DNA from: Blepharisma japonicum
Taxonomy: Eukaryota; Ciliophora; Heterotrichea; Heterotrichida; Blepharismidae
Length of the DNA stretch: 64,000 nt
Direction of reading: 5' to 3'
NCBI GenBank assembly: GCA_949751835.1
Contig: CATKHK010000130.1
Span: 26,682 to 90,681 of the forward strand
Under the pieces are notes generated by a model. That model saw only the letters and a program-made list of their open reading frames with translations, was not told the origin of the DNA and searched no databases. The position numbers and the translations under genes are program-made. Positions 4,443 through 42,989 of the stretch are shown in pieces. Position 1 is the stretch's first letter. Each line of letters opens with the position of its first letter.

Positions 4443-7400
4443 ATGCCTATTAAAACAAAAGATTCTTTACTTGATGAAGATGATATATTAGGCTATATTT
4501 CCAGCAAATCGACATACGCTAAGCTGAGATATAGGATATTGATTTATTTTGAAAAAATTTTCCAAGAAAAATACAATCATAGATTGAAGTGAAAAGATCA
4601 GTTATTTCTGGAAATTTCGATAAATGTGATCATCACAATCCAGATGATTACATTCGCATGGTATCCAAACATGAATATAAGTGGTTGGGACAGCTATTCT
4701 CAGTTCTGAAATCTTATTGGTTATATAAGTCCAGACTCCCTTTTTGCGGACTTGGGAATTTATGAAGTTTCTTTCTATACAGTTATAGGCACTATTGGCT
4801 ATTGCTTGTTTTGTTTGATACTAATTGCAGTCTTAGGTTGCCTTAATCAGAAAATCCCTTGAATCTTAATTGCGATTCCGAGAAAGATTCTTATGATTTT
4901 AAACACAGTCATGTTTATCCCAAGTGTAAGCATTCTATTAACTGTTTTCAAATATTCATCATTTGACTATTCAGATTGCATAGAATACTCGAGCATTAAT
5001 GATGTTAGCAAACTTAATTTTGGCCCAGGAGGAGCACTACTCTCTTTAATTTTTTTGATATTTTTGCTATTTATCATTTTATTTTCGGAAATCTTTACTT
5101 CTGATATTAGGCACTCTTCATGCCAAAAAAACATTAGAGCGAGATCTAATTCAAAAATAGATATTCATATAATTCTTTTCTGCTATATAGAATGCATTCT
5201 TTATGTATTTTTTGGTGGAGATCATATAAAATATTTCGAAATCATACTAATGATTTTTTCTGCAGCAATTTTATGAGAAACTCTACGCTTTTTGCCGTAT
5301 TTTAACCTTACAGGGAATGCAATTCAAGCATGCAAAATGTTTATTATTTCATGCACTTTGCTATTCTTTTTAATTGGAGAAACAATGGATAATGGCTCTG
5401 TTATTATTTTACTTGAACTATTTGTTCTCCCACCTCTTACTATTCTTGTTATTAAAAAGGTGAAAAACAACTTTCTTGCATTATCACAACATGATAAAAT
5501 ACCTAATGATCAATATGAATTCGAACAAATTGTAAGGCATTTATTAGTTAACAAACAATTAGAAGATAAAATCTCAGTTATTAAGCTCTTTACAAATTGC
5601 TATAAAAAATCATTTGAAAGAGACAAAATGCTTACTATATGAGAAGCCAATTATTGTCTATATATCCTAAAAGATGAAAGACTCGCAAGAATAAAACTTG
5701 CAAAAGCTGCTGATGCAAGGTCAAGCTTTGAAGGCGACATCCATACTTTGAGACTCTCAAACAAAATACTCGAATCCAATTCTTCATCCTTAGCTGAAGT
5801 TCACTATTTAAGCTATTTGCAGGACCTTGACAAAGTTAAGCACATGGATGAAGAAGTCTGCATTTTATTAATAGATTTATGAACTGAAATCAACATGAGA
5901 ATTCCCAACACTCAAAAATTAGTGAAACTTGTTTATAAAATATACGACTTAATTACCAATATTAAGACACTCTATTCAATGCTCTCATCTAAGCATAAAC
6001 AGACAGAGGTGTACGATCTTTATGGGTCATTCTTAGAAAATATTTTACGTGATATAGAGCAGAGTGAGATGATCAATCGAAAAAAAACTGCATTTAAAAA
6101 TTCACTAGACCTTTTAGTTGAAGAAAATAAAAAATTAAATATGTTTGGAGAAAGAAATGCAATCATTCTAATTTCTGCAAATTCTGAGTCTTTTGGAATA
6201 ATAGCTTATATGAATCAAAATGCAGGAGATATTTTAAAAATACCTTTTGAATCTGGGATAGGGGTACCACTATCATATTTTATTCCAAAGCCTTTTGACC
6301 ATAATCATGATAAGCAAATGAAAGAATTCTTTAATAGCTGCACAACAACTGAAGTCTCTACTCACTTGAATCTTTTTCTTCAAAACCAACAAGGATTCCT
6401 TGTTGAGTGCAAATTTATAATTAGATTAACTGCTGTAGAAAATCGTGCATATATATTAGCATCCTTTCGGAAACGAAATTCAAAGAGAGAAATCGCCTTG
6501 ATTTCTGATAAAGGCTTAATTTATAGCCATTCTGAAAGATTTCCTTTTTATATTGGACAAAACAATTATTCGATTAGAAATAAGCATTTATCGGATATAA
6601 TTCCAAATTTTGATATTTCCATTATGGATGTGTGCTCTCCTTTAATAGTCTCTTCTGAAGACAAAGAAATGCTGTTTGTACATCTGATACGTAAATTCAG
6701 AGCTGCTGAAATCCATATTTTAGCTGTAATTTATGATGAAAAAGAAATTCACCTATGAAAAGAAGGTCATGAAACTGAGCAAATAGAATTCTTTGGAAAT
6801 GCCTATTTTAGTGAAATGAAAACAGAAGGAAGCAAAACATATGAAGGAGATATTAGCATAAGTGAATTAATACATTCAAAAGATAGAGTTAAATTTATTA
6901 GCGTTAATAGCTCGACAATAAATTTAGGTGACGAAACAAGTCATACACAAATTATGTACGAAACAACTATGGAAGAAAGCAAAGCAATTCTGAATTCAAA
7001 GTCGCAATCGACTTTGAATTTTAATGGAAATACATCTTCAAATAGTAATTCAAAAAGTAACCGTTATGTAGGGTTTGCTTATAAAATCCTTAGCAATTCT
7101 GAAAATAAACTCAAGATTTTTACATGAATTTTATTTTTTTCAGTAATTTATATACAGATCGCAGCTGTGATAGGAACAAATATAGGGATTGTTGTTTATA
7201 TGCATAATAATATTGCTCAAGCAAGTACTGCTAACTCTTTTGGCCATTTAGGAACTCTGCTGTGCTCTCTTGGAAGCTTGGTAAATAAAGCTATTGAGCT
7301 TAATATTGATTTCGCCAAAAATAGCGAATCATTTGAAAATGATTTATCTTTTTTTAATAGCACAATAAATGTGCTCATTGGCGTAGAAAATTCCATGCTA

Positions 7401-8696
7401 AACGATTTAGACAACTTACACTATTGTTCTTCTTCTGAAATTATTCTTGATCCAAGAATTCCTATATGAGATATTAATGATGAAGATTTTATTACCTACC
7501 AAAATCTTTATGATGGTATTCAAAGGTATATCAATAATGTAACTATAATATAGTGCATAAATTTTCTTGAATCTCTGAAGAAGAGTCAAATTGCAATGGA
7601 TAGTTTTAATTTTATCTTATTCAATGGTCTAGGCTACTTATATGACTACATAAAAATATCGACAAAAAATTGAGTTCAATGCGAAAATGATAGAATTAAA
7701 TCAATAGTGACAAATATTGCTGCTCTTTTAAATGTTGCCATAGTAATTTTAGTAGTCTTTCAAGCATTTTTAATTGGATATATTATATATATCAATAAAG
7801 GAATGAATATCTATTGGAATTTTATTAAACTTAGCTCGCAAGCTTCATATTTAGAATTAAAACGAGCTCTCTTGGAAAGACTTTCAACTATTCATGGTCT
7901 TGATTATGAAAAAGACTATTCACCTACCAAAAAAGGTGATTCAAAGTCTGAAATTCTACCACATATATACTGAAGATATATAAGAAAACTTTTGGTGTTT
8001 TTCATTATTTCTGCATCTTATTATTTTTTAATTGAATTTCATTTATATAAAGACTGCAGCAGCTACATAAAAAATAGGCCTAAACTACTTTACAATTTTA
8101 TAACACGAGAATCTAGCATTTTACGTATAAATATTGCAAGCTATAGTGAACTTGAATCTCTCATGATGCTTTTTTATCATAATATTAATATAAAAAATCA
8201 AAGTAAACTGATCGAAGATGAAATAAAAATGTACAAAGAAAGCTTAAACGATCTCAGAGATGATAAATATCTGGACTTAATTTCAGACCAATTAAAAAAA
8301 AGATTATTTGAGGAAATAGATACAACCGTTGATTTATTGAAATATGGACTTTCTTCAACTTCTTTTACAACCAGTTATCAGTCTTTATATTTTTTCAATC
8401 AATCAGAAGGCTCTATAATCAAACAAAATATATGAGAAATAGAAAATGAATTAATTTTTGAATTCAATATAGCAGATGATGATTCAAAAAGTATTATTAA
8501 TTATCAGTTAAGCATGATTATTTACGTTACTGTAGGATATTCTATATTGCTAATAATTTTATACCTATTCTATTATGTCCCCTTTCTGTATAAAGAGAAA
8601 AAATTGCTTAAGAAACTAAAGATTTTGCCGATGATTATTCCAAGCTCTCAGATAAGTTCGAAGGAAGAAACAGAATTTTTAGCTGGATCGTATTAG
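4443..8696 (+). CDS. TmcB-like multi-pass membrane protein with PAS-like domain, copy 1 (1402 aa)
   Basis: One gene when TGA is read as Trp (many sites) and three 15-nt introns are removed (7057-7071, 7143-7157, 7539-7553). The N-terminal third has many hydrophobic segments (for example around residues 150-180, 200-225, 280-330). A helical block near residue 398 (IWEANYCLYILKDERLARIKLA) resembles the helical-repeat region annotated in ciliate TmcB/TmcC-like proteins. Residues about 565-690 look like a PAS domain (AIILISANSESFGIIAYMN, then LKIPF and SYFIPKPF). Further membrane segments lie near residues 886, 1075, 1167 and 1342, with a large soluble loop between. The family is expanded in ciliates; the name comes from Dictyostelium 'tiny macrocysts' proteins and the function is unknown. 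A sensory role is inference. Tandem with copy 2, 712 bp away. Confidence 0.8.
7057..7071 (+). other. 15-nt intron (TmcB-like copy 1, intron 1)
   Basis: GTAACCGTTATGTAG, phase 1. It contains no stop and keeps frame, so it would be missed by frame alone. It is called because copy 2 has a stop-containing 15-nt intron at the same place (12044-12058). Confidence 0.75.
7143..7157 (+). other. 15-nt intron (TmcB-like copy 1, intron 2)
   Basis: GTAATTTATATACAG, phase 0, inside a membrane-segment coding region. It has no stop but aligns exactly with the TAG-containing intron 12130-12144 of copy 2. Confidence 0.8.
7539..7553 (+). other. 15-nt intron (TmcB-like copy 1, intron 3)
   Basis: GTAACTATAATATAG, phase 0. 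It removes an in-frame TAG; copy 2 has an intron at the same codon position (12526-12540). Confidence 0.9.
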
Positions 8697-9408: not shown

Positions 9409-12400
9409 ATGACTAATAAAATAAAAAATTCAATGCCTCTGAAAACAAAAGATTCATTGCTGGATGAAGATGACATATTAGGCTACATCGCAAACAAATC
9501 AACATATGAGAAATTCAGATTTCGAATTTTAATTTACTTTGAAAAAATATTTCAAACCAAATATAATCATCGGATGAAGCAAAACGAGCAAGTCTTTCTA
9601 GAAATTTTAATAAATATTATACTTACAATTCAAATGATTACCTTTGCATGATATCCAAAAATGAATATCAACAGCTGGGATTCTTATTCTCAATTCTTCA
9701 ATCTTATTGGCTATGTAAGCCCTGATACGCTTTTAGCCGATCTAGGAATTTATGAAGTGGCCTTTTATACAATTATAAGCGCTATTAGCTATTGTATGCT
9801 TTGCTTAATACTAATTGCAATATTAGGATGCCTCAACCATAAAATTCCTTGAATTCTGATAGTAATTCCTAGAAGAATTTTGGCGATTCTAAACACAGTA
9901 ATGTTCATTCCAAGCTCAATGATATTGCTAGTAATCTTTAAATATTCAGTATTTGAATATTCAGATGTTCCTGAGTATTCTAAAATATCTGATCCTCAAA
10001 CTTTGAATTTTGGCCCATTTGGAGGGCTGATTTCTCTTATTTTTTTGATATTTCTGATAATTATTATCTTATTTTCAGAAATTTTTACTTCTGACATTAG
10101 GCATTCTTCATGCAAAAAAAATATTAGGGCTCGATCTAATTCTAATGTAGATATTCATATAATACTTTTCAGTTACTTAGAATGCTCCTTTTATGTATTC
10201 TTTGGCGGAAATCATGTAAAATATTATGAAATTATATTGATGATTTTTTCTTCAGTGGTTTTATACGAAGCAATTAACTGTTTACCGTATTTTAATTTGA
10301 TTTCTAATACAATTCAAGCATGCAAAATGTTTATTATTTCATGCACCCTATTGTTTTTTATAATCGGAGAATCAGCTGATAATGGAAATATGATATTTTT
10401 ACTTATGCTATTTGTTCTGCCGCCACTTACTATCCTTATTATCAGAAAAGTAAAAAACAATTTTCTTGCATTATCGCGGCTTGATAAAATTCCTAATGAT
10501 CAATATGAATTTGAGAGAACAATTAGGCATTTGCTAATCAATAAAAAATTAGAAAATAAAATATCAGTTATAAAACTATTTACTGACTGCTATAGAAAAT
10601 CATTTGAAAGAGACAAAATGCTAATCGTATGAGAAACCAATTATTGTCTGCACATATTAAAAGATGAAAGACTTGCAAGAATTAAGCTCACGAAAGCAGC
10701 TGATTCTAAATCAAGCTTTGAGGGAGATATTCATGCTATAAAACTTGCAATTAAAGTATCAGAAGCAAACTCATCAACACTATCTGAGATTCATTATTTG
10801 AGTTACTTGCAAGATCTAGACAAAGTTAAGCATATGGATGAAGAAGTCTGCATTATAATGATTGATTTATTTACAGAAATGGGCATGAAAAATCCTAATA
10901 TCGAAAAACTGGTTAAATTAGTCTACCGTGTGCATGACTTGATTACTCAAATAAAAATACTCTATTCCTTCTTAATTAATAAGCATTCGCAATCGGAAGT
11001 TTATTGTCTTTATGGATCATTTTTAGAAAATATTTTAGGTGATGTTGGCCAAAATGATATGATATTAAGGAAAAAAAGTGCACTTAAAAATTCGCTAGAT
11101 CTCGCAGTGGATGATGACAAGAATTTGAATATTTTTGGAGAAAGAAATGGAATAATTTTGATTTCAGCAAATTTGGAGTCTTTTGGTATAATTGCCTATA
11201 TGAATGAAAACGCTTGCGATGTTTTAAAAATTCCGTTTAAAGATGGGATGGGAACACATTTGTCTAGCTTTATCCCAAAACCATATGATCACGGCCATGA
11301 TCAAAGCATGAAGGATTTTTTCTACTCCTGCACAACAACTGAAATAACCAGCCATTCAACGCTTTTTCTGCAAACTATGCAGGGATACCTTATTGAACTG
11401 AAGTTCATAATAAAATTAACTGCTGTCGATAATAGGGCATATATCTTAGCATCATTATTGAAAAAAAATACATCAAGAGAATTTGCTGTGATTTCTGAGA
11501 CAGGGCTAGTTTATAACTATTCTCTGCATTTTCCTCTTTATATAGGGCATAAAGAGAATAATATTAGAAATAAGTATTTGTCTGACCTGATCCCAAACTT
11601 TGATATCTCAATTATGGAGCCGTGCTCTCCATTGAAAGTCACTTATACAGGGAAAGAAATCTTACTTGTTCATTTAATAAGAAAGCTCAGGACAACTCAA
11701 ATTCACATCTTAGCTGTTATTCATGATCCTAAAGAAATTAATTTATGAAAAGAAGGTCATGAGGCTGAACAAATAGAGTTTTTTGGTAAAGTTTGCAAAA
11801 ATAGCGAGATTGAATCCTTAAATGCAGAAGAAAATGGCGCTATAGTATTAAGGATTTCTCATGAAAGAGTGAAATTCATAAGCACTGATAATACAGCCAC
11901 AATAAACTTTACAGGAGATGACATAGTTAATACAAACATTCAGAATACCTCAGCTTTTGAAGAAAATAAAGCAATGATTAGCTCAAAGTCACAGTCAACT
12001 TCAAATCCCCATGAAAGCTTAACTTCCACTTATAACAGCAAAAGTATCTTTTAAGCAGTATCTGGCTATAATATTCTTCATCACTCAGTCAAGAAGCTCA
12101 CAATTTTTACTTGAATTTTATTATTTTCAGTACTTTCTATATAGATCATCGCAGTTATATGCACAAATTTAGCAATAGTTATTTATATGTACAACGATAT
12201 TATTCAAACTAGTACTATTGATACCTTTTCCCACTTAGGCACACTTTTATATTCACTAAGTAGCGCAGCAAATAAAGCTATCGAATTGCAAAAAGTAGTT
12301 TCTCTATCTAATAAACCTTCTGAAAGTGATATAACCCTTTTTCGCAATACAATAGAAGATCTTATTAGCATCGAAAATTCTATGCTTAGCGATTTAAGCA

Positions 12401-13692
12401 GCTGACGGTATTGTTCTGCATCTTCAATTATTCTCAGTTCAGAAATTCCTATATGAGACGTCAGCAATGATGATCTAATTATTAAAGAAAACCTCTATAA
12501 TGCAGTTCAGCTCTTCATCAATCATGTAATAATAATTTAGTGCATTAATTTTATGGAAGGCATTCAAGATAACAGATTTGTTAATAATGATTTGAATTTT
12601 ATTCTATTTAATAGTTTGGGATATCTATATGAATACACAAAGAAATCAACACATCTATTGGTTGATTGCGAAATCGAAAGGATCAAATCAACAGAAGAAA
12701 ATATTATTATACTTTTAAATACAGGAATAGTTATTTTGGCACTATTTCAAGCAGCTTTGAGTGGCTATATTGTTTATATCAATAAAGGAATAAATAAATT
12801 TTGGCAGTGTATAAAAAGCAGCTCCCATGTGTCATATTTAGAATTAAAAAGGGCTCTTATAGAAAGACTTTCAACAGTTCACGGACTTGATTATGAAAAA
12901 GATTATTCATCTACTAAAAATTCTGACTTTAATTCTATAATTCTCCCACGTATATATTGAAGATACATAAGAAAGCTGCTTGTTTTTTTCATTATTTCTG
13001 CATCATATTATTTTTTAGTTGAATTTTACTTATATAAGGACTGCAACCAATATATATCAATGCGCCCAAAGTTACTTCAAAATTTTATAATAAGAGAAAC
13101 AAGCATTTTGCGTATAAATATTGCAAGCTATGGCGAGCTTGATCCATTTTTGCTTCAGTTTTGGGATAAAATTAATATAAACAGCGAGAGAAGTTTATTA
13201 AACGATGAAATAAAAATATTTCAAGATAGTTTAAATGAACTTAGAAAAACTGAATATATGGAACTAATATCTGATGCTTTAAAGGCTAGGCTATTTGAAG
13301 AGATTGATACGAATATAAAGAGATTAAAATATGGTGCCTATTCTTCATGCTTTGGGGGTATTTATAACTCATTATATTATTTAAATCAAACTGATCTATA
13401 TAACATTTTAGATTCATCAAGCTTCAAGGAAAATATATGGAACATAGAAGAAGAGCTTATTTATGAATTTGGAATGGCAGATCATGATTCTAAAGACGTT
13501 ATTAACAATCAATTAAGTTTGATTATATATGTGACTATTGGCTATTCTTCATTGCTTATGAGTTTATATTTGTTTTATTATATCCCTTTCTTATATGAAG
13601 AAAAAAAGTTGCTGATGAAACTAAAAATTTTGCCGACGATCATCCCTAGTTCGAAAGTAAGTTTAATGGATAGCGATTATACAGCACTTTAA
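9409..13692 (+). CDS. TmcB-like multi-pass membrane protein with PAS-like domain, copy 2 (1412 aa)
   Basis: Paralogue of the preceding gene along its whole length and with the same layout: N-terminal membrane segments, helical block, PAS-like domain (IILISANLESFGIIAYMNEN), then membrane segments alternating with soluble loops. The start MTNKIKNSMPLKTKDSLL is eight residues longer than copy 1. Three 15-nt introns (12044-12058, 12130-12144, 12526-12540) each contain an in-frame stop, so they must be removed. TGA is Trp at many places, for example 9649, 9850, 10630 and 11746. The N-terminal half is best conserved between the copies; the Ser/Asn-rich linker near residue 830 is the most divergent. 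Ends at TAA 13690. Confidence 0.8.
12044..12058 (+). other. 15-nt intron (TmcB-like copy 2, intron 1)
   Basis: GTATCTTTTAAGCAG, phase 1. Removing it deletes an in-frame TAA and restores alignment with copy 1 (GY-IL against AY-IL). Confidence 0.85.
12130..12144 (+). other. 15-nt intron (TmcB-like copy 2, intron 2)
   Basis: GTACTTTCTATATAG, phase 0. Contains an in-frame TAG; same position as in copy 1. Confidence 0.9.
12526..12540 (+). other. 15-nt intron (TmcB-like copy 2, intron 3)
   Basis: GTAATAATAATTTAG, phase 0. Contains an in-frame TAG; same position as in copy 1. Confidence 0.9.
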
Positions 13693-13883: not shown

Positions 13884-15131
13884 TTATGAATATTTATATT
13901 TTGGAGCGTACCTTGTCATTTCCTCAATTGACTCGGCCACATAATCCAAATTTTGGTCATTAAGACCAGAAAGGGACATTTTCCCATTATAAAATAAGTA
14001 AATGTGCTTAAAATTCATCAATGCATGACACTGATGTGGGCTCATTCCAGTATACGCATACATCCCAACTTGATCTCTAATATGATTTCAATCATGAACG
14101 GATCCTTTATCAATCAACTTATTTACCAATTTGCTTCTGTTTTCCGTAATTCTCATAAACATTTCCAACAAGTCCTTCCTTCATTGCTTGTTTAGCTCTT
14201 CATTATTTAAAATTTTACTCACAATTTCACTTCCATGCTTAGGAGGCATCCCTAAAAAATGTTTTTCTAGAGTTTTAAACTGAGACATCACATTTTCGCA
14301 TTCTGTTTTGTTTTCACAAATAGCTGAAAATAAGCCTACCCTATCTCCATATAATCCAAAGTTTCTCGCAAAACTTTGGGCAATTAAAATTTGAGTATTT
14401 TTTTGGAGAAAATATCTAACAGGGTAAGCATCGTCATCAGGATTTCCACTTGCGAACCCTTGATTGGCTATATAAAAAAAGGGCAAATGTCCTTTTCTAG
14501 CCACAACTTCATGAATTTCTGCCCATTGGGATGTGGTGGGATCAGTGCCAGTTGGATTGTGGGCTGATGCATGGAAAATAATAATGGAATTGTTTGGAGC
14601 AGCATCAATTTCAAATAATAAATTTGAAATATCAACAATTTTATTATTCTGGTCATAATATGTATAATCTTTTACCTCAAGCCCGGAATCCCTTGCTATT
14701 ATTTTATGGTTTTCTATTGTCGGTTTGGGAAAATACACAGTCTTGCTGTGAGGGAAATGTTGATGTAAAAACGCCATTCCCATTCGTAAAGCTCCAGTTC
14801 CTGATAAGGCTTGGATGCTTGCAATCCTTCCTTCGTTAATATCTGAATAAGACCCATAAGCTAGTAGTGTTGCTGCCTTAATAAATTCAGGAAAGCCTTC
14901 CGCTGGGGTATAATCGTGGTCTGAATTTATAATTAGCTCTTCTGCTCTCCGAACTGAAGGAAGTATTCATGGCTTCAAGTTTTCATCTCGATAAGAGTCA
15001 ATTGCTAAATTTACTTTTAGGTGACTAGGATCTTTACTGAACGCTTCCAGTATATAAGAAGTTGGCTCACTAGGTCCTAATTCAATATTTTTCCATGTGG
15101 CTCTTGATCTCCATAATGTCTTATTTAGCAT
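13884..15131 (-). CDS. Aspartate aminotransferase-like protein, catalytic residues lost (415 aa)
   Basis: Full-length class I aminotransferase of the AspAT subgroup: KVNLAIDSYRDEN, PWILPSVRRAEE, SGTGALRMG, HASAHNPTGTDPT, FFYIANQGFASG, AQSFARNFGLYGDRVG and GLNDQNLDYV all align without gaps to the family. Aspartate aminotransferases swap the amino group of aspartate with 2-oxoglutarate using PLP. Yet the PLP lysine (pig K258) is R256, the pyridine-binding Asp (D222) is Y220, Y225 is N223, W140 is I139 and the substrate arginine R386 is K384. N194, S255 and R266 equivalents remain (N192, S253, R264). By these residues it should not transaminate. Two Trp codons (near 14967 and at 14181) are TGA. 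The start at 15131 gives the usual family length with almost no leader. Confidence 0.9.
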
Positions 15132-25765: not shown

Positions 25766-28027
25766 ATGGGTATTTGTGCTTGCAAAGCTAAGGTTATAAC
25801 CCCAATTCCAATAACTCATCAGTCTGCACGAGCTTCTCCAAAAATCAAAAAAGTGCTTATTAAATGTAAAAGTTACTCAGTTACAAAAGATGAGCTAAGG
25901 ATATTAAAAGATCTATATAAAGATTTATCACGAAAAACAAGTGATGAAGAAGCTATCGATAAAAACACTTTCATTCAATTTTTTTCGTTGCCTGTAACCT
26001 ATAAGCAGGGTTTGCTTGGAGAAAGATTATTTCAAAAATTTGACATAAATAAGCAAGGATCAATAAGTTTTGAAGATTTTTTATGAGGATTTGCCTCATT
26101 TAGTAAAGGCACACTCGACCAAAAATACAAAATTATTTTTGATTTATATGATTTAAAAGAGGATGGTGTAATTGACAAAAATGAATTAGTTACTATCGTA
26201 TTTCTTACTCAGATTCATAACTCTTATAAAGAAACAGCTGATTTGCTTCCTCAGCCAACGTCTACAACTGACATTTCTAGCGAGCATGATTTATTTATTC
26301 AATTAGGACCCTCAAAAAGTCCAATCAGAAAATTAGAAAAAAGAAGAACGACTTCTGTTTTTCCTGATGAAGAATATCCAGAAAATAAGGAAAAAAATAT
26401 AGGAACACAATTTCAAGAAAGAAGGGTGCAGTTAATTGCTGCTCACATTTTAGATACATTTGGAAATAAAAGTACTTTAACTTTTATCGACTTCAAAAAT
26501 TTCTTGACCCAACATCCAAAAATATTTGAAGTTTTCAGAGCATCTTATAAAGAAGACATTTGGCTTGGAGTGCAGCCAGACCAAATAGTTGTAAGAGATA
26601 GAAAAGAAAGAAAAAGATGCAAAACAATTGGTGGAGTTGTATCTGCACAAACCTTTGCAGACTTTCGACTTGATAAATTTCCATCAATTAACGCATGTGA
26701 TTTTTCTGGCTTCGTATATCAAAAATCCAAAGAAACTGGGTATTTTGAAAAGAAATTCGCAGCGTTAAAGAAAAGTTTGCTTTTAATCCATGACCATCGT
26801 GAAGACAAGATGCCTTCAGGAGTCATTTTTATGGATGGATGCTATGTAGATATCATTGGAGATTACTATATTTCTAAGAAATTTGGAATTTCAATATCTC
26901 ATGAATCCAGCTCATATAATGAAATAAATTTATGGTTTGATTCTCGCGAAGAAAGAGATGAATGGATTAAGCTATTAGAAATTGCAGCCAAAACAAGGAA
27001 GTTTAAAGAATATTATGAACTTAAAGAGAAAATTGGCCATGGCAGATTTTCTGATGTTCATATTGTAATAGAGCATTCCACCAACCAAAAATATGCAGTA
27101 AAAATTATCACAAAAGCCCGACTTACTCATAATGAAGCAGAAATGCTTCGAAGCGAAATCGCTATTATGAGATTATTGGATCATCCTGGAGTTATTCAAT
27201 TAAAAGAAGTTTTTGACACTAAAAAGCACATGCTTATTGTAATGGAGCAAGTGCGCGGAGGAGAGCTGTACCAAAGGATTGTAAATAAAAAGTATTTTTC
27301 TGAGTACGCAGTCAGTCAAGTCATAAAACAGCTGCTTGAAGTCGTTCGATATTTGCACGATGTTGGAATTATTCACAGAGATATCAAGCCAGAAAACATT
27401 TTGTTGGTTGATAATTCAGAAATCCCCAAAATTAAATTAGCGGATTTTGGGCTTTCTCAGCTAGCAATGCCTGGATCACTACAAACTTTAACATGTGGAA
27501 CTTTAGGATACGCAGCTCCTGAAGTTTTAGCAAAGAAGGGCTATGACAATAAAGTTGATTTATGAAGCGTTGGGGTAATAACTTATTTATTACTTCATCA
27601 TAGACTGCCTATAGACCATCCAGAAAAGCAAGACCTAATAGACATGACTTTAAAGGCGCCAATTGATTTTGAAGGTGAACATTGAAAAAAATTTTCTCCC
27701 CAAGCTTTGGATTTTGTACAAAAACTATTAAATAGAGATCCAAAGGTGAGATTTTCAGCGGAAGAAGCATTGACGCATGAGTGAATTCAAAATTCCGATG
27801 GAGTTTTGCTTAAAGAAAGCTCCAAAGAAAATTCTGTTGCAGGAGAATCCTTTCAATCAGGCGGTATATATCATCCTGGACTAACAGAGTCTTCTAGTAC
27901 AATAGATAAAAATCATAGGCTTCGTGTACAGAGTTTACCTGAACTATTGGCTCCCGGGCAAGCATCTTTTGATCGATTTTCGACATCTAAAGCAAGCGGA
28001 GTATCATCGATGCATCTTCAATCATAG
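25766..28027 (+). CDS. EF-hand / PH / Ser-Thr protein kinase, CDPK7-like (753 aa)
   Basis: TGA is Trp at 26084, 27563, 27683 and 27782. The N-terminus MGICACK carries Gly2 for myristoylation and Cys4/Cys6 for palmitoylation, so the protein is probably membrane-bound. Residues about 60-170 form EF-hand-like helices: FDINKQGSISFEDFLWGF and DLYDLKEDGVIDKNELV. Residues about 311-408 are a PH domain (SGFVYQKSKETGYFEKKFAAL ... WFDSREERDEWIKLL). Residues about 416-675 are a kinase: GHGRFSDV, AVKII, HRDIKPEN, DFGLS, GTLGYAAPE and WSVGVITYLLL. EF hands before a PH domain and a C-terminal kinase is the order known for apicomplexan CDPK7, unlike ordinary CDPKs. Calcium and phosphoinositide control is inference. 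Confidence 0.9.
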
Positions 28028-36058: not shown

Positions 36059-37469
36059 TTATAAGTCATCATCAGTTTTTTCAACAACTGAAAACATTCT
36101 TTCAGCTTTTCTTATAGAAATGCCTAAAGTATTTTTTCTCTTTGGATTTAAAGTTTCTCTTCTTTGAAAACCTCTTGACGATTTTTTGTCCAGCTTGAGG
36201 CTTTTAAGGAGCTTAATTAATTCTCCGACCTTTTCTTTGGTGCTGGAACCTTTAAAAGTGTGCAAATCTTCAGTGCCGCTGAAGCTTGGTCTTGGAGTTA
36301 AATTCTCCATTCCAGATCCTGATTCCGCTATAAAATTACTTATTTTTATTTCGAGTAACTTTACTTGCAATTCAAGCTCACTTTTTTCATCTTTTACCAT
36401 TTCAAGAGTTTTAATTGCTGATTCAAGCTCTGTTTTTAAAGTTTTATTTTCATTTAAAGCAGCATCATGCTTATTTACTAAGTCATTTAAGCTTTCTTTT
36501 AAATGGATAATTTGCTTTTCATTTTGAATTGTTTTTACCTGCAAATCTCCAATCAGATTTTTGTCTGCTGAAGATTCTGCTTTATAGTTATTAATTTTCA
36601 TATATGCCTGATTGAGTTTTTCTTGGGTATCATTAGCATCGTCTTTAAATCTTATGTTCTTAATAAAATATTACTTGTTCTTCTAGTTGGGCCATTTTTC
36701 ACTCCATAGCTTTAACTGGAGCGTTGATTGCTTCTTGGATTTCCCATTTCAGCTTGTCAATTTCTTTGTCTCTTGCTTTAATAGCAATTTTGAAATCTAT
36801 GTAAAGTCTACCTCTTTCCAAATGCATTAGGGATTTTTGTAGCCTATTAATATCATTCTTTGATTCTTCTCATAATTCTTTATAAGTACTTGATACATGA
36901 AAATAAGGTATTTCCTCATCTAATAATGCATCTTTATAAAAATTACCAGTATGCTTATCATATATTTTTTCAAGGACATCTTCATCCAGCTCTTTTTTAT
37001 CCGCATAAAGCGACCTTGAAATTTCTGAAGTAATCATCTGCATTTCTTTTTGATATGCCCCACTTTCATTAGCACATATTTCTAATGCTTTTGAAGCAGC
37101 TTTAGCTTTTTTAATATCTGGCTTGTCGCTTGATTTTTCTAATTCTTGTAGAACTTGAATTAAATTGTACTTGTTTTTTATCACAGAAGATTTAAACTGA
37201 ATAGTAGGTGGACTCGATTCTTTTATTGGAGATAGATGTATACCTGAAGTATTCATAGAATAATTGCTTTTAATGATTGAGCTTTTATTAGCCAAGCTAA
37301 GAACAAAGAAGGAATTATCAGACCTGAGTTTCTCAGAGTTTAACTGTAAAGAATTCACTGAATGATAGTTAGATACCTTCTTTAAGATTTTAGATGAGAA
37401 GGCTGGAACTCTTTTTACTGATGAATGAGCTGTAAAATCTTCAAAACTTTTGGAAGCATGTAAACTCAT
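36059..37469 (-). CDS. Unrecognised coiled-coil protein (464 aa)
   Basis: A 16-nt intron (36659-36674) joins two open segments; without it the frame stops at TAA. TGA Trp codons lie at about 36867, 36753 and 36702. The N-terminal 100 residues are Ser-rich (MSLHASKSFEDFTAHSSVKR). A short folded-looking part follows (KAASKALEICANESGAYQKEM, then EDVLEKIYDKHTGNFYKD). From residue 205 on it is a long coiled coil (KARDKEIDKLKWEIQEAI; HLKESLNDLVNKHDAAL). No named domain. It is head-to-head with the next gene, and a broken copy of its 5' part sits at 40.2-40.6 kb. Confidence 0.75.
36659..36674 (-). other. 16-nt intron in the coiled-coil gene
   Basis: Sense strand GTAATATTTTATTAAG, phase 0. It removes an in-frame TAA and links QLEEQ to NIRFKDDAN. 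Confidence 0.88.
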
Positions 37470-37837: not shown

Positions 37838-40078
37838 ATGCATGAGCCAAATCTCCCCAACCTAAAAAATAAAAGATCCTCAGAGCGCTCGACAACAGCT
37901 TCAAATTCAAGAGAATCAAAAAAATCAAGTGTGCTGGTGAGTAACTATGAGAATTCTTGTGAAACAATAAGCAAAGAGGCAGCTGACTCAAATATATTAT
38001 CATCTTCAATTTCTCCCTTTAAAAAAAGTTCAGAAATATTTTTCTGTGCAGAGCTTAACAGACTTGATAAAGACCTTGATTCTTATGAAATTGAGCTCAA
38101 AAATATCAATCCATTGGAAGGACTTGATTTGCAGAATATTAACCAATCCTGTGAGAAATATCAACAGTATTTAGAAAGCATCGCTGTTTGTGCTAAGCAG
38201 AAAGATAGTAAACTAGGAAATTGTATCATAAGAGGGGTAATTGGCTATAAAAAAGCTTTTCAACAAATAACGAAATATTTAAAAAGCTTGGAATCTCAAA
38301 AAATTCCTGTCAAAACTAAATATAAGGATGAAACCGTTCAAACTGAAAATCCAGGGGAAAATGGAAGCGAAAAAGCACATCGAAGTGAGAGCCCAGATAT
38401 AAATTTCCTAAAAGAATTAGGTGACAAAATGAAAAATCTCAAAGTTACTGGAGTCACCAATCATTTATGAGATTTATATGATTCATTATGCCAGATGCAG
38501 ACTGATGTGCCTAGTCCTGTTGAAACGCCTGATCTTATTAATTTTGACACAAAAGAAGAAAATAATGGATTTGGAGATGGAGTCGAAAATTTAAGAAAAG
38601 AATTAGTCAGCAGCTTTGTAAGGCAGAAAACAATAAAACAAGTAAAATGCACAGAAAAAGGATGCCAAGTAGAAAGTAGAGGGATAGATTCAGCATTGGA
38701 AAGCATTGCTGGTGAAAAAGAGCTAGAGATTCTTAAGCTTAAACGCAGGTACGATGCTTTATTAGAAGAAAAGAAAAAATTCGATGATGAGATAAGCTTC
38801 AAAAATTTAAAAATTTATGAGCTAACAGGGAGATTAAATGAAATTTCTCAGCTACAAAATAAAGTCAATGAAATTTCAACTGAGTTAAAATTAGAAAGAT
38901 CCATGAACTCAATTTCAAAGGAAAAGCTTGAAAAAAGTAAACTAACAATCAACTCACTAAAAAAAGAATGTGAAAATTTAAAGACTAAATTAATTGGGAA
39001 GCGAAATAAATTACTACGATTAAAAGATGAATTTCTGCAAAGGAGTGTGCTATGAAGAATGGCTGAAGAAAAAAATAAACAAATAGAAGAATCCTGACTT
39101 CAAGTGCATGGAAGCAAATTTGTTTATTCTGGTATTGATGCTAACGAAATCATGAAAAAATATGGCCTTCAAAAAGAATTAGACAGTGATAATGAAGGCG
39201 GAGACACCACAGCAATTTCTAATTTCGATAAAAAATGAAATAAAAATTCTACAGGTTCTTATAGCCAAAGACCAAACGTAATAAGAAATAAAGGAAAGCC
39301 GATAGGATTTGATGAGAGCAGCCAAGAAACAGATAATACGAAAAGTTCAAAAAATAAATATTGGACTCAGGAAGAAAAATTAGAAAGAATTCATGAAAAT
39401 GAAATTCTTAATAAAAAGCATCACAAAAAATTACAATTTGAAAATAGAAATTCTAGCTTCTCGAGCTCTTCAGAAGAGCTCGATCAAGAAGATAAAGATG
39501 GAAAATCTATAAATCAATCAATGAGGTATGATATTTCGAATAAGAAATTAGAAAACGCTGAAAAAGCACTTATTGCCACGCTCAATAAAGAGCAAAAGGA
39601 TTTATTTAAAAAATTTAAAAGTTTGCTTCACACAAAATACCCGCATTTAACTCGATTTTCAGAAAACTTAAAATCAACTATTACCGATAAACTAGAAATC
39701 TTGGAAACTACTTCTCATTCCAAAGGTATACAAAAGCTCTCTAAATATAAAAATAAGCTTAACAAAACAAATCTTCTAAAAGATGCTCTAAACCACAATT
39801 TATCTACTACAACGAAGTCTTTTTTGAATGAAAGCTTTGATAAAGAGAAAAATGATGAAATTCCGAACTCGTTAATTTCTATATTTAAAAATAAAGCAGA
39901 ATATCAAGCCCTTTCCCCATACACCAAACGATTATTGGAACAATGCATGGAAGGGCATGACTATAAAAAATGTGGAGCAGAGTGCGAACACTTAAAAAGA
40001 GCTATGGCGATAAAGGCTAAATATAATGGGAGAATTTATCACTTACGAACAGCGAGCCTTGATTTTGATTATTTGTAG
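37838..40078 (+). CDS. Unrecognised coiled-coil protein, tandem copy A (746 aa)
   Basis: One frame with TGA Trp at 38468, 39053, 39095, 39236 and others, ending at TAG 40076. Residues 1-60 are Ser-rich; residues 65-150 look folded (CAELNRLDKDLDSYEIELKN, then SCEKYQQYLESIAVCAKQKD); residues 285-405 form a strong coiled coil (ELEILKLKRRYDALLEEKKK); then a low-complexity middle; and the last 185 residues are a compact helical block (LIATLNKEQKDLFKKFKSLL ... PYTKRLLEQCMEGHDYKKC) with several Cys near the end. I do not recognise it. Copy B at 40743 is its paralogue. Confidence 0.8.
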
Positions 40079-40194: not shown

Positions 40195-40640
40195 ATCTTT
40201 TGCATATATTTTTTTCAAGAACGTGCCTATTCAGCTCTTTTGGTCTGCATAAAGCGATCTTGGAATTTCTGAAGAAATTAGTTGCATTTCTTATATATCC
40301 CCTGTTTTATTGACAAATATTTCTGATTCTTTACAAGTAACTTTGGCTTTTTAATATGTGACTTATCCTTGATTTTTCTAATTCTTGTAGAATTTATGCT
40401 AAATTGTACTTTTCTAATTCTTGCAGAGCTTAAATTAAATTGCACTTGCTTTTTTATTACAAAAGATTTAAACCGAATATGAGACGAAGTCGATTCTTTT
40501 ATTGATGATAGACGTATATCTGAAGTATTCATGTCATGGCATAATTATTTTTGGCAATTGAGCTTTATTAGCCATGCTAAGAATAAATGAGGAAGAGAAT
40601 TTACTGAATGATAGTTAATATTTTCCTAATAAAAATTATT
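40195..40640 (-). pseudogene. Relic of the minus-strand coiled-coil gene, copy B
   Basis: The sequence matches the 5' half of the gene at 36059-37469 (about 36950-37330): for example CATATATTTTTTTCAAG, TGATTTTTCTAATTCTTGTAG and CGATTCTTTTATTGATGATAG all have counterparts in the same order. It is broken by frame shifts, stops and an internal partial duplication (TTTCTAATTCTTG twice). Only MNTSDIRLSSIKESTSSHIR remains readable against MNTSGIHLSPIKESSPPTIQ. The 3' coding half is missing. Confidence 0.85.
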
Positions 40641-40742
40641 TCTTTTGGATTCAGCCCATCAAAGAGTTAAATAAATTTGTATAATTCTTTCTCTTAGAAG
40701 AAAACCTAATGTAAATTAAAGATGGAACAGTATTTATTAGAT

Positions 40743-42989
40743 ATGCATGAATCAAACCTTCCCAACCTAAAAAATAAAAGATCCTCTGAGCGCTCGACAA
40801 CAGCTTCAAATCCAAGAGAATTAAAAAAATGAAGTATGCTGGTGAATAATTATGAGAATTCTTGTGAAACAATAAGCAAAGAGGCAGCTGACTCAAATGC
40901 TTTATCATCTTCAATTTCTCCCTATAAAAGAAGCTCAGAAATATTTTTCTGTGCAGAACTTAACAGACTTGACAAAGATCTTGATTCTTATGAAATCGAG
41001 CTTAAAAATATCAGTCAATTGGATGAACTTGACTTGCAAAATATTAACCAATCCTGCGAGAAATACCAGCAATATTTAGAAAGTGTTGCTGTTTGTGCCA
41101 AGCAGAAAGACAGTAAACTAGGAAATTGCATCATAAGAGGGGTGATTGGCAATAAGAAGGCTTTTCACCAAATAACGAAATATTTAAAAAGCCTGGAAAC
41201 CCAAAAAATTCCTACAAAAATCAGATATAGGGATGAAATCACTCAAACTGAAAAGTCAGGAAAAAATGGAAGTGAAAAAACACCTCGAAAGGAAAGTGAG
41301 AGCCTAGATATAAATTTTCTCAAAGAATTAGGTACTAGAATGAAAAATCTCCAATTTAATGAGGTCACAAATCATTTATTAGATTTATATGACTCTTTAT
41401 GCCAGATGCAGATTGATGTGCCCAGCCTTGCTGAAACACCTGATCTTATTAGTTTTGACACAAAAGAAGAAAATAATGGATTCGGAAATGGAGTCGAAAA
41501 TTTTAGAAAAGAATTAGTCAGCAGTTTAGCAAAGCAGAAAACAATAAAACAAAAACAATATGCAGAAAAAGGATGCCAAGTAGAAAGTAAAGGGATATAT
41601 TCGGAATTTGAAAGCATTGCTGGTGAAAAAGAACTAGAGATTCTCAAGCTTAAACGCAGGTACGATGCTTTATTAGAAGAAAAGAAAAAAATTGATGATG
41701 AGATAAGCTTCAAAAATTTGAAAATTTATGAGCTGAATGGGAAATTAAATGAAACTGCTCAGCTGAATAATAAAGTTAACGAACTGTCAATCGAGTTAAA
41801 ATCAGAAAAATCCATGAATTCAATTTCAAAGGAAAAGCTTGAAAAAAGTAAACTAACAATCATTTCACTAAAAAAAGAATGTGAAAATTTAAAGACTAAA
41901 TTAATTGGGAAGCGAAATAAATTACTAAGATTAAAAGATGAATTTTTGCAAACGAGTGTGCTATGAAGAATGGCTGAAGAAAAAAATAAACAAATAGAAG
42001 AATCCTGAATCCAAGTGTATGGAAGCAAGTTTTCTTATTCTGTAATTGATGCTAACGAAATCATGAAGAAATACAGTCTCCAAAAAGAATTAGATAGCGA
42101 TAATGAAGGTGGAGATGCTACAGCAATTTCTAATTTCGATAAAAAATGAAATAAAAATTCTACAGGTTCTTATAGCCAAAGACCAAACGTGAATAGAAAT
42201 AAAGAAACACCAATTGAATTTGATAAGAGTAGCCAAGAAGCTCATAACTCTAAAACCTTAAAAAATAAATATTGGATTCAAGAAGAAAAACTAGAAAGAA
42301 TTTATGAAAATGAAGTTCATGATAAAAAGTATCATAAAAAATTACAATCTGAAAATAAAAATTCTAGCCTTTCGAACTCTTCAGAAGAGCTCGATCAAGA
42401 AGATAAAGATTGAAAATCTATAAATCAATCAGTGAAGTTTGATACATCAAATAAGACATTAGAAAATGCTGAAAAGGCCCTTACTGTCACACTCAATAAA
42501 GAGCAAAAAGACTTATTTAAAAAATTTAAAAGTTTGTTTTACTCACAATACCCACATTTAACTCGATTTTCAGAAAACTTAAAATCAACTATTACCGATA
42601 AACTAGAAATCTTGGAAACTACTTCTCATTCCAAAGGTATCCAAAAACTCTCGATGCATAACAATAAACTTAGCAAAACAAATCTTCTAAAAGATGCTCT
42701 AAACCACAATTTATCTACTACTACGAAGTCTTTTTTGAATGAAAGCTTTGGTAAGGAGAAAAATGATGAAACTCCGAACTCGTTAATTTCTATATTTAAA
42801 AATAAAGTAGAATACCAAGCTCTTTCCCCATACACCAAACGATTATTGGAACAATGCATGGAAGGGCATGACTATAAAAAATGTGAAGCAGATTGCATAC
42901 ATTTGAAAAGAGCCATGGCAATAAAGGCTAAATATAATGGGAGAATTTATCACTTACGAACAGCAAGCCTTGATTTTGATTATTTGTAG
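40743..42989 (+). CDS. Unrecognised coiled-coil protein, tandem copy B (748 aa)
   Basis: Paralogue of the 37838 gene, aligning end to end with few indels and the same TGA Trp positions (40830 extra, then 41964, 42006, 42147, 42411). Start MHESNLPNLKNKRSSERS, end in HLRTASLDFDYL at TAG 42987. The coiled coil and the C-terminal block are nearly identical; the middle, Ser/Asn-rich part is most divergent. The frame is fully open, so it is probably under selection, although its neighbour on the minus strand has decayed. Function unknown. Confidence 0.8.

Follow-up and report, generated by a model that had tools for sequence, protein, structure and literature searches.

A divergent aspartate aminotransferase gene in Blepharisma

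The 64,000-nucleotide stretch of DNA analyzed here (the window; positions 26,682 to 90,681 of contig CATKHK010000130.1, C130) belongs to the 45.2-Mb, 224-contig Blepharisma japonicum assembly GCA_949751835.1 and carries a gene of the aspartate aminotransferase (AspAT) family on its minus strand, at 15131..13884. The initial annotation of this stretch had described the gene as full-length and open, which we confirm: the open reading frame (ORF) is intact over 415 codons, ends in a single TAA stop, and needs no introns. Its predicted product (encoded by 13884..15131) is referred to below as P0001. Three in-frame TGA codons are read as tryptophan, because W317 and W348 of P0001 are tryptophan positions common to other aligned AspATs and because the Blepharisma telomere repeat occurs in the assembly. 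Part of PMC9942806 describes for Blepharisma this same decoding of TGA, introns of 15–16 nucleotides, and the telomere repeat CCCTAACA. A three-unit pattern of that repeat gave 77 + 91 = 168 matches, which overlap and so represent far fewer places than 168, and the reversed control gave 0; among the matches listed (about 100 of the 168), hits follow one another in runs, and many sit at the very start of a contig.

Family membership of P0001 is clear from PF00155 (aminotransferase class I/II; E 4.3e-62, 210.8 bits against a curated cut-off of 19.7), and the solved structures matching it best are mitochondrial AspATs (E about 1e-108). In NCBIfam, where P0001 alone was scanned, its score for PRK09257 (372.1 bits) fell just short of the cut-off of 377. 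A genome search detected six AspAT-like genes, namely that of P0001 and five paralogue loci (L002–L006, with proteins P0002–P0006). The L002 and L003 proteins are of mitochondrial type, 79%–80% identical to each other and 52%–53% identical to P0001, which shares 42% identity with human GOT2, while the products of L004, L005, and L006 cluster with the Schizosaccharomyces pombe AspAT (cytoplasmic according to its PDB entry) with modest support (82/82).

Modeling suggests that P0001 keeps the AspAT fold, a conclusion of moderate confidence because the alignments are shallow. With an alignment of the six paralogues, the best AlphaFold2 model of P0001 had a predicted local distance difference test score (pLDDT) of 73.5 and a predicted template modeling score (pTM) of 0.77, compared with 72.0 and 0.76 for the best P0002 model at the same alignment depth. 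The top Foldseek match of the P0001 model was human mitochondrial AspAT (template modeling score 0.85, 41% identity), and other AspATs were matched as well.

Replacement of active-site residues

P0001 was aligned with a small comparison set of 19 sequences: its five paralogues, human and chicken mitochondrial AspAT, S. pombe AspAT, and 11 bacterial I-alpha aminotransferases (plasmid records; 11 taken of the 30 hits listed, with 264 records matching). The list of active-site residues, in pig numbering, is our own and partly follows those named in the initial annotation. For D222, W140, K258, R292, R386, G108, T109, S255, and R266, the roles agree with those given in PMC6135512, where human numbering places each residue one position higher. 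Six positions unchanged in all 19 other sequences are altered in P0001, namely K258 (now R256), D222 (Y220), Y225 (N223), R292 (K290), R386 (K384), and G38 (D45). In addition, W140, a tryptophan in 18 of the 19, is I139, and S296, a serine in 17 of the 19, is G294; N297 has become M295, in a variable column where six bacterial rows also have methionine. The catalytic lysine, D222, and Y225 are each missing from P0001 alone among the 20 aligned rows, and of the residues that define a functional AspAT of class I-alpha, K258, D222, Y225, W140, R292, and R386 are replaced in it.

Each of the substitutions first proposed for this gene (Arg256, Tyr220, Asn223, Ile139, and Lys384) is borne out by the alignment, as is retention of the phosphate-binding R264 (R266), and the change reported in the "R292 region" is R292 to K290, accompanied by those at S296 and N297. 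The claim that all catalytic residues were lost was too strong, however, because H143, H189, N194, and the phosphate cup are kept. In full, the retained residues are Y70, S107, G108, T109, S255, R266, H143, H189, N194, P195, and G197, and the phosphate cup (Y70, S107-G-T109, S255, and R266) is identical to that of P0002 at six of six positions.

The losses fall preferentially on the active site. P0001 differs at nine of the 36 columns that are invariant in the other 19 sequences, having lost 6 of 13 active-site invariants versus 3 of 23 others (one-sided Fisher p = 0.037), and the three changes outside the active site are all conservative (D to E, L to I, and F to Y). When seven eukaryotic sequences serve as the reference, with P0006 excluded, 111 columns are invariant and P0001 departs from 29 of them: 10 of the 23 that are listed and 19 of the 88 elsewhere (p = 0.035). 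When each of the 19 sequences was in turn set against the remaining 18 as a leave-one-out control, 11 had lost none and seven had lost one to three, including a Photobacterium row with two losses, each at a listed position (G108 and W140); P0006 had lost eight, two of them in the active-site list.

P0006 (L006, G000:C121:11941-13107) is a second unusual AspAT paralogue. It carries Y70 to E, S107 to G (a glycine also found in the bacterial rows), A224 to P, and S296 to G, changes that affect the phosphate cup and contacts made in trans, while K258, D222, Y225, W140, R292, and R386 are kept. An altered cofactor affinity or substrate is possible for P0006.

Could the replaced residues be errors of assembly or sequencing? 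This explanation, named at the outset as one that would undo the finding, is the least credible of those considered here and was rejected: sequencing error is very unlikely because the eight changed active-site codons differ from those of L003 by 15 nucleotides in total, all in frame, and the nearest paralogue is only 53% identical, so errors in a known copy offer no explanation.

Given that the Schiff-base lysine, the partner of the pyridine nitrogen, the ring clamp, and the substrate arginines are all changed, ordinary transamination by P0001 is not expected from established AspAT chemistry. A weak or different reaction dependent on pyridoxal phosphate (PLP) but not on the lysine has some precedent, since PDB entry 1aka is titled as a K258H AspAT with catalytic activity without the lysine and a quinonoid-stabilizing K258R mutant is cited, by title, in the reference list of PMC13397446; H143, H189, and N194 are also kept in P0001. 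Nonetheless, the changes at the lysine, D222, Y225, W140, G38, and the two substrate arginines come together here, leaving neither a pyridine-nitrogen partner nor a ring clamp, and we regard such a reaction as improbable.

Phylogeny and selective constraint

An IQ-TREE phylogeny of the 20 sequences placed P0001 as sister to P0002 and P0003 (100/99) within the mitochondrial-type clade (96/96). Its terminal branch is long (0.78, compared with 0.09 and 0.15 for P0002 and P0003 beyond a common stem of 0.11), and Tajima tests in eight comparisons counted 48–73 unique changes in P0001 against 21–28 in its sisters (p 6e-7 to 0.003), with no difference between P0002 and P0003 (four comparisons, p 0.07–0.85).

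Constraint on the gene was estimated with a codon model of 62 sense codons over 401 codons of the six paralogues, in which all values of omega (dN/dS) are approximate because synonymous sites are saturated. With free branch lengths, omega was 0.074 on the P0001 branch and 0.052 elsewhere; omega = 1 was rejected (twice the log-likelihood difference, 2 delta lnL, 28.6), and the P0001 and background values did not differ significantly (2 delta lnL 0.5). With P0001 clocked to its sister branches (with kappa fixed, as were branches within the outgroup), the values were 0.103 and 0.053, with a 2 delta lnL of 14.8 for the difference and of 217.8 for the rejection of omega = 1. The twofold relaxation of P0001 is significant only under the clock.

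A recently dead pseudogene in neutral decay was another outcome foreseen as overturning a functional reading. On its side, a neutral tail no longer than about 0.06 substitutions per site is compatible with the codon model alone, and under the clock the gene is about twice as loosely constrained as its relatives. However, 415 codons persist without a stop or frameshift, omega = 1 is rejected, and a long functional phase followed by a neutral tail was favored at none of the seven tail lengths tried (lnL −2.2 at 0.067 substitutions per site, with kappa fixed along with the P2 and P3 branches and those within the outgroup). In 400 simulated decays per depth, 34 frames were still stop-free at a depth of 0.05 per site, a number that fell to 3 at 0.1. 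Further neutral simulations (six depths from 0.02 to 0.3 per site, with 2000 runs for each; substitutions only, without indels) gave at least six active-site losses in 0, 6, 84, 369, 749, and 1460 runs and stop-free frames in 642, 136, 7, 2, 0, and 0 runs across the six depths, and the whole observed pattern (at least 6 of 13 active-site losses, at most 3 of 23 other losses, and no stop) in 0 of 2000 runs at every depth. On the codon-model omega below 1 and these simulations, we reject a fresh pseudogene, to which we attach very little probability.

The gene has been retained while its active site was rewritten, and it is maintained by selection. We propose, with a probability of about 0.85, that P0001 is a non-catalytic, selected mitochondrial AspAT paralogue. 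Judged from sequence and modeled fold, it fits the definition of a pseudoenzyme, an enzyme-family fold without the conserved catalytic residues. The initial annotation had argued from the catalytic losses and the kept frame to a non-catalytic job, and the paralogue pattern and constraint support this much, while the specific job it named (binding or regulation) is still something we infer.

Possible roles of P0001

The origin of the gene would lie in the duplication of a mitochondrial-type AspAT in Blepharisma or an ancestor of its lineage, after which P0001 would have lost transamination chemistry and stayed folded under purifying selection. AspAT is a dimer with both PLP sites at the interface, as stated in part of PMC6135512. 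A mixed dimer would be a natural mode of action, because these sites are interfacial and P0001, P0002, and P0003 have a common N-terminal type; P0001 would then dimerize in the mitochondrion through the interface that holds the active sites, and the L002 and L003 products would be its probable partners. To its partner it would lend its structure and Tyr74, plus the changed loop with K290, G294, and M295, the counterparts of R292, S296, and N297, which we take to reach across the dimer interface. Entering the partner's site, these residues would lower or retune its activity, and the leftover cationic, phosphate-binding pocket of P0001 may sense a phosphorylated or dicarboxylate ligand. The swaps of two arginines to lysine and of the lysine to arginine would leave the pocket cationic, which, with the cup intact, could give room to a phosphorylated or anionic ligand, although Y220 and D45 may fill or crowd it. 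That P0001 works in this way, as a regulatory partner subunit of paralogues keeping the catalytic residues, is the reading we favor, yet a tentative proposal to which we give somewhat less than even odds.

P0001 might instead act without the paralogues, as a homodimer that binds a phosphorylated or dicarboxylate ligand (such as non-covalent PLP, phosphate, or another metabolite) and serves as its carrier, sink, or sensor. None of the six phosphate-cup positions has changed, in contrast to four of the five ring or Schiff-base positions, and positive charge is preserved at three pocket positions; part of PMC6135512 also describes seemingly apo AspAT variants that suppress an Arabidopsis RUS mutant, for which a role in vitamin B6 homeostasis was proposed. 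However, the cup may be kept for structural reasons, and the pocket may be crowded as noted above. We consider a binding protein of this kind rather unlikely, though the main competitor of the regulatory subunit.

Several points weigh against a selected, non-catalytic mitochondrial partner subunit. The active-site list was our own and partly follows residues already named, so the Fisher tests and the finding are not independent, and the p values lean towards it. Divergence is not significantly clustered in the interface loop: a concentration at 283–301 was tried and rejected (8 lost and 7 kept versus 49 lost and 119 kept; two-sided Fisher p = 0.078), and 3134 of 5000 shuffles reached the maximum window. 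The fold of P0001 may be less stable than that of P0002, because pLDDT over five models was lower (73.5, 63.0, 54.7, 50.1, and 49.8 versus 72.0, 70.2, 68.5, 67.8, and 59.0). Its mitochondrial location is drawn from its N-terminus and the tree. For a putative dimer with P0002 or P0003, what is observed is the co-existence of P0001 with paralogues keeping the catalytic residues. Moreover, the loop that P0001 would lend to the partner is itself altered (R292K, S296G, and N297M), which argues against a simple helper whose role is to complete the site of its partner. A subunit that inhibits or retunes that site agrees better with the altered loop, as does a homodimer.

AspAT is among the best-studied enzymes, and solved mutant structures exist, by title, at residues lost here (K258H and D222T). 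A Blepharisma genome holds five AspAT copies keeping the catalytic parts and a sixth in which catalytic residues are replaced, and such a natural joint loss under selection would amount to a ready-made experiment, an AspAT scaffold minus catalysis. P0001 may be a regulator of nitrogen and redox exchange in ciliate mitochondria. More speculatively, and in our opinion unlikely, it could belong to a heterotrich-specific family of AspAT pseudoenzymes whose heterodimers sense metabolites and thereby switch the AspAT step of the malate-aspartate shuttle. If annotated from its match to the PF00155 profile, the gene would be labeled an aminotransferase.

Features of the locus

The gene and the codons discussed above are located in Table 1.

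Table 1. Positions in the window of the P0001 gene and its active-site codons (pig numbering for the residues replaced or matched)
Feature	Position	Strand	Basis
AspAT-family gene of the putative pseudoenzyme, 415 aa, TGA = Trp	13884..15131	-	PF00155 and mitochondrial AspAT matches
N-terminal 15 residues, Arg/Lys-rich, resembling the N-termini of the mitochondrial-type L002/L003 proteins; probable targeting sequence	15087..15131	-	alignment
D45 codon (GAC), replaces G38	14997..14999	-	alignment
Y74 codon (Y70, phosphate contact lent to partner subunit), kept	14910..14912	-	position counted from frame
S110-G111-T112-G113 phosphate-cup motif, kept	14793..14804	-	position counted from frame
I139 codon (ATA), replaces PLP-ring-stacking W140	14715..14717	-	alignment
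Y220 codon (TAT), replaces pyridine-N-binding D222	14472..14474	-	alignment
N223 codon (AAT), replaces Y225	14463..14465	-	alignment
R256 codon (AGA), replaces Schiff-base lysine K258	14364..14366	-	alignment
R264 codon (R266, phosphate contact), kept	14340..14342	-	position counted from frame
K290 codon (AAA), replaces R292, substrate arginine lent to partner subunit	14262..14264	-	alignment
G294 codon (GGG), replaces S296	14250..14252	-	alignment
K384 codon (AAA), replaces R386, alpha-carboxylate arginine	13980..13982	-	alignment

Two tandem genes for large proteins with many hydrophobic stretches lie on the plus strand at 4443-8696 and 9409-13692, each in at least two ORF pieces. The second copy, which was the one scanned, has a piece matching the TmcB TPR family PF25474, and some 190 bases separate the end of this copy from the 3' end of the P0001 gene. 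Elsewhere on the plus strand, a gene for a coiled-coil-like protein appears, by eye, to be tandemly duplicated (37838-40078 and 40722-42989), with companion ORFs on the minus strand (36660-37469 and 40278-40532), that of the second copy being much shorter.

Comparison with known systems

Pseudoenzymes in general are well known. Among the matches listed from the open-access literature, outside which most subscription papers fall, we found no named family of AspAT pseudoenzymes, and open-access matches for aspartate aminotransferase in Blepharisma were unrelated papers only. The main text of a pseudoenzyme review (PMC10211241) and of a survey of Drosophila enzymes (PMC12869072) contains none of the words transaminase, aminotransferase, pyridoxal, and PLP. 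A scan of bacterial and archaeal contigs returned one locus only (L007, JAIYDP010000342.1:12003-15384), an AspAT split over several frames, likely by introns. That contig, filed under a metagenome-assembled genome of Verrucomicrobiaceae, shows by eye kinase-like sequence nearby, and is probably a misbinned eukaryotic contig.

P0001 shares family, length, fold, phosphate cup, and N-terminal type with GOT2 and the other mitochondrial AspATs of class I-alpha, including the products of L002 and L003, but unlike them is without the Schiff-base lysine, the pyridine-nitrogen aspartate, Tyr225, Trp140, Gly38, R292, and R386. We know of no prozyme-like control of AspAT. Within fold type I, the LCB1/SPTLC1 subunit of serine palmitoyltransferase lacks the PLP lysine and is paired with an active paralogue, although it belongs to the alpha-oxoamine synthase family and not to AspAT. 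The nearest candidate is the mammalian AspAT-like paralogue GOT1L1, compared here by description, which like P0001 is a divergent AspAT whose role is unclear. Unlike P0001, with its predicted inactivity, GOT1L1 made in HEK293T cells is reported active in part of PMC4282708. For the mechanism, the model is offered by the trypanosome prozymes of AdoMetDC, deoxyhypusine synthase, and PRMT1, dead paralogues acting as partner subunits in the account given in part of PMC6221367. Although their enzyme families are unrelated to AspAT, and their heteromers are described there whereas that of P0001 is proposed, they resemble the present case in that a protist has, next to an active enzyme, a paralogue that is dead or, for P0001, predicted to be so.
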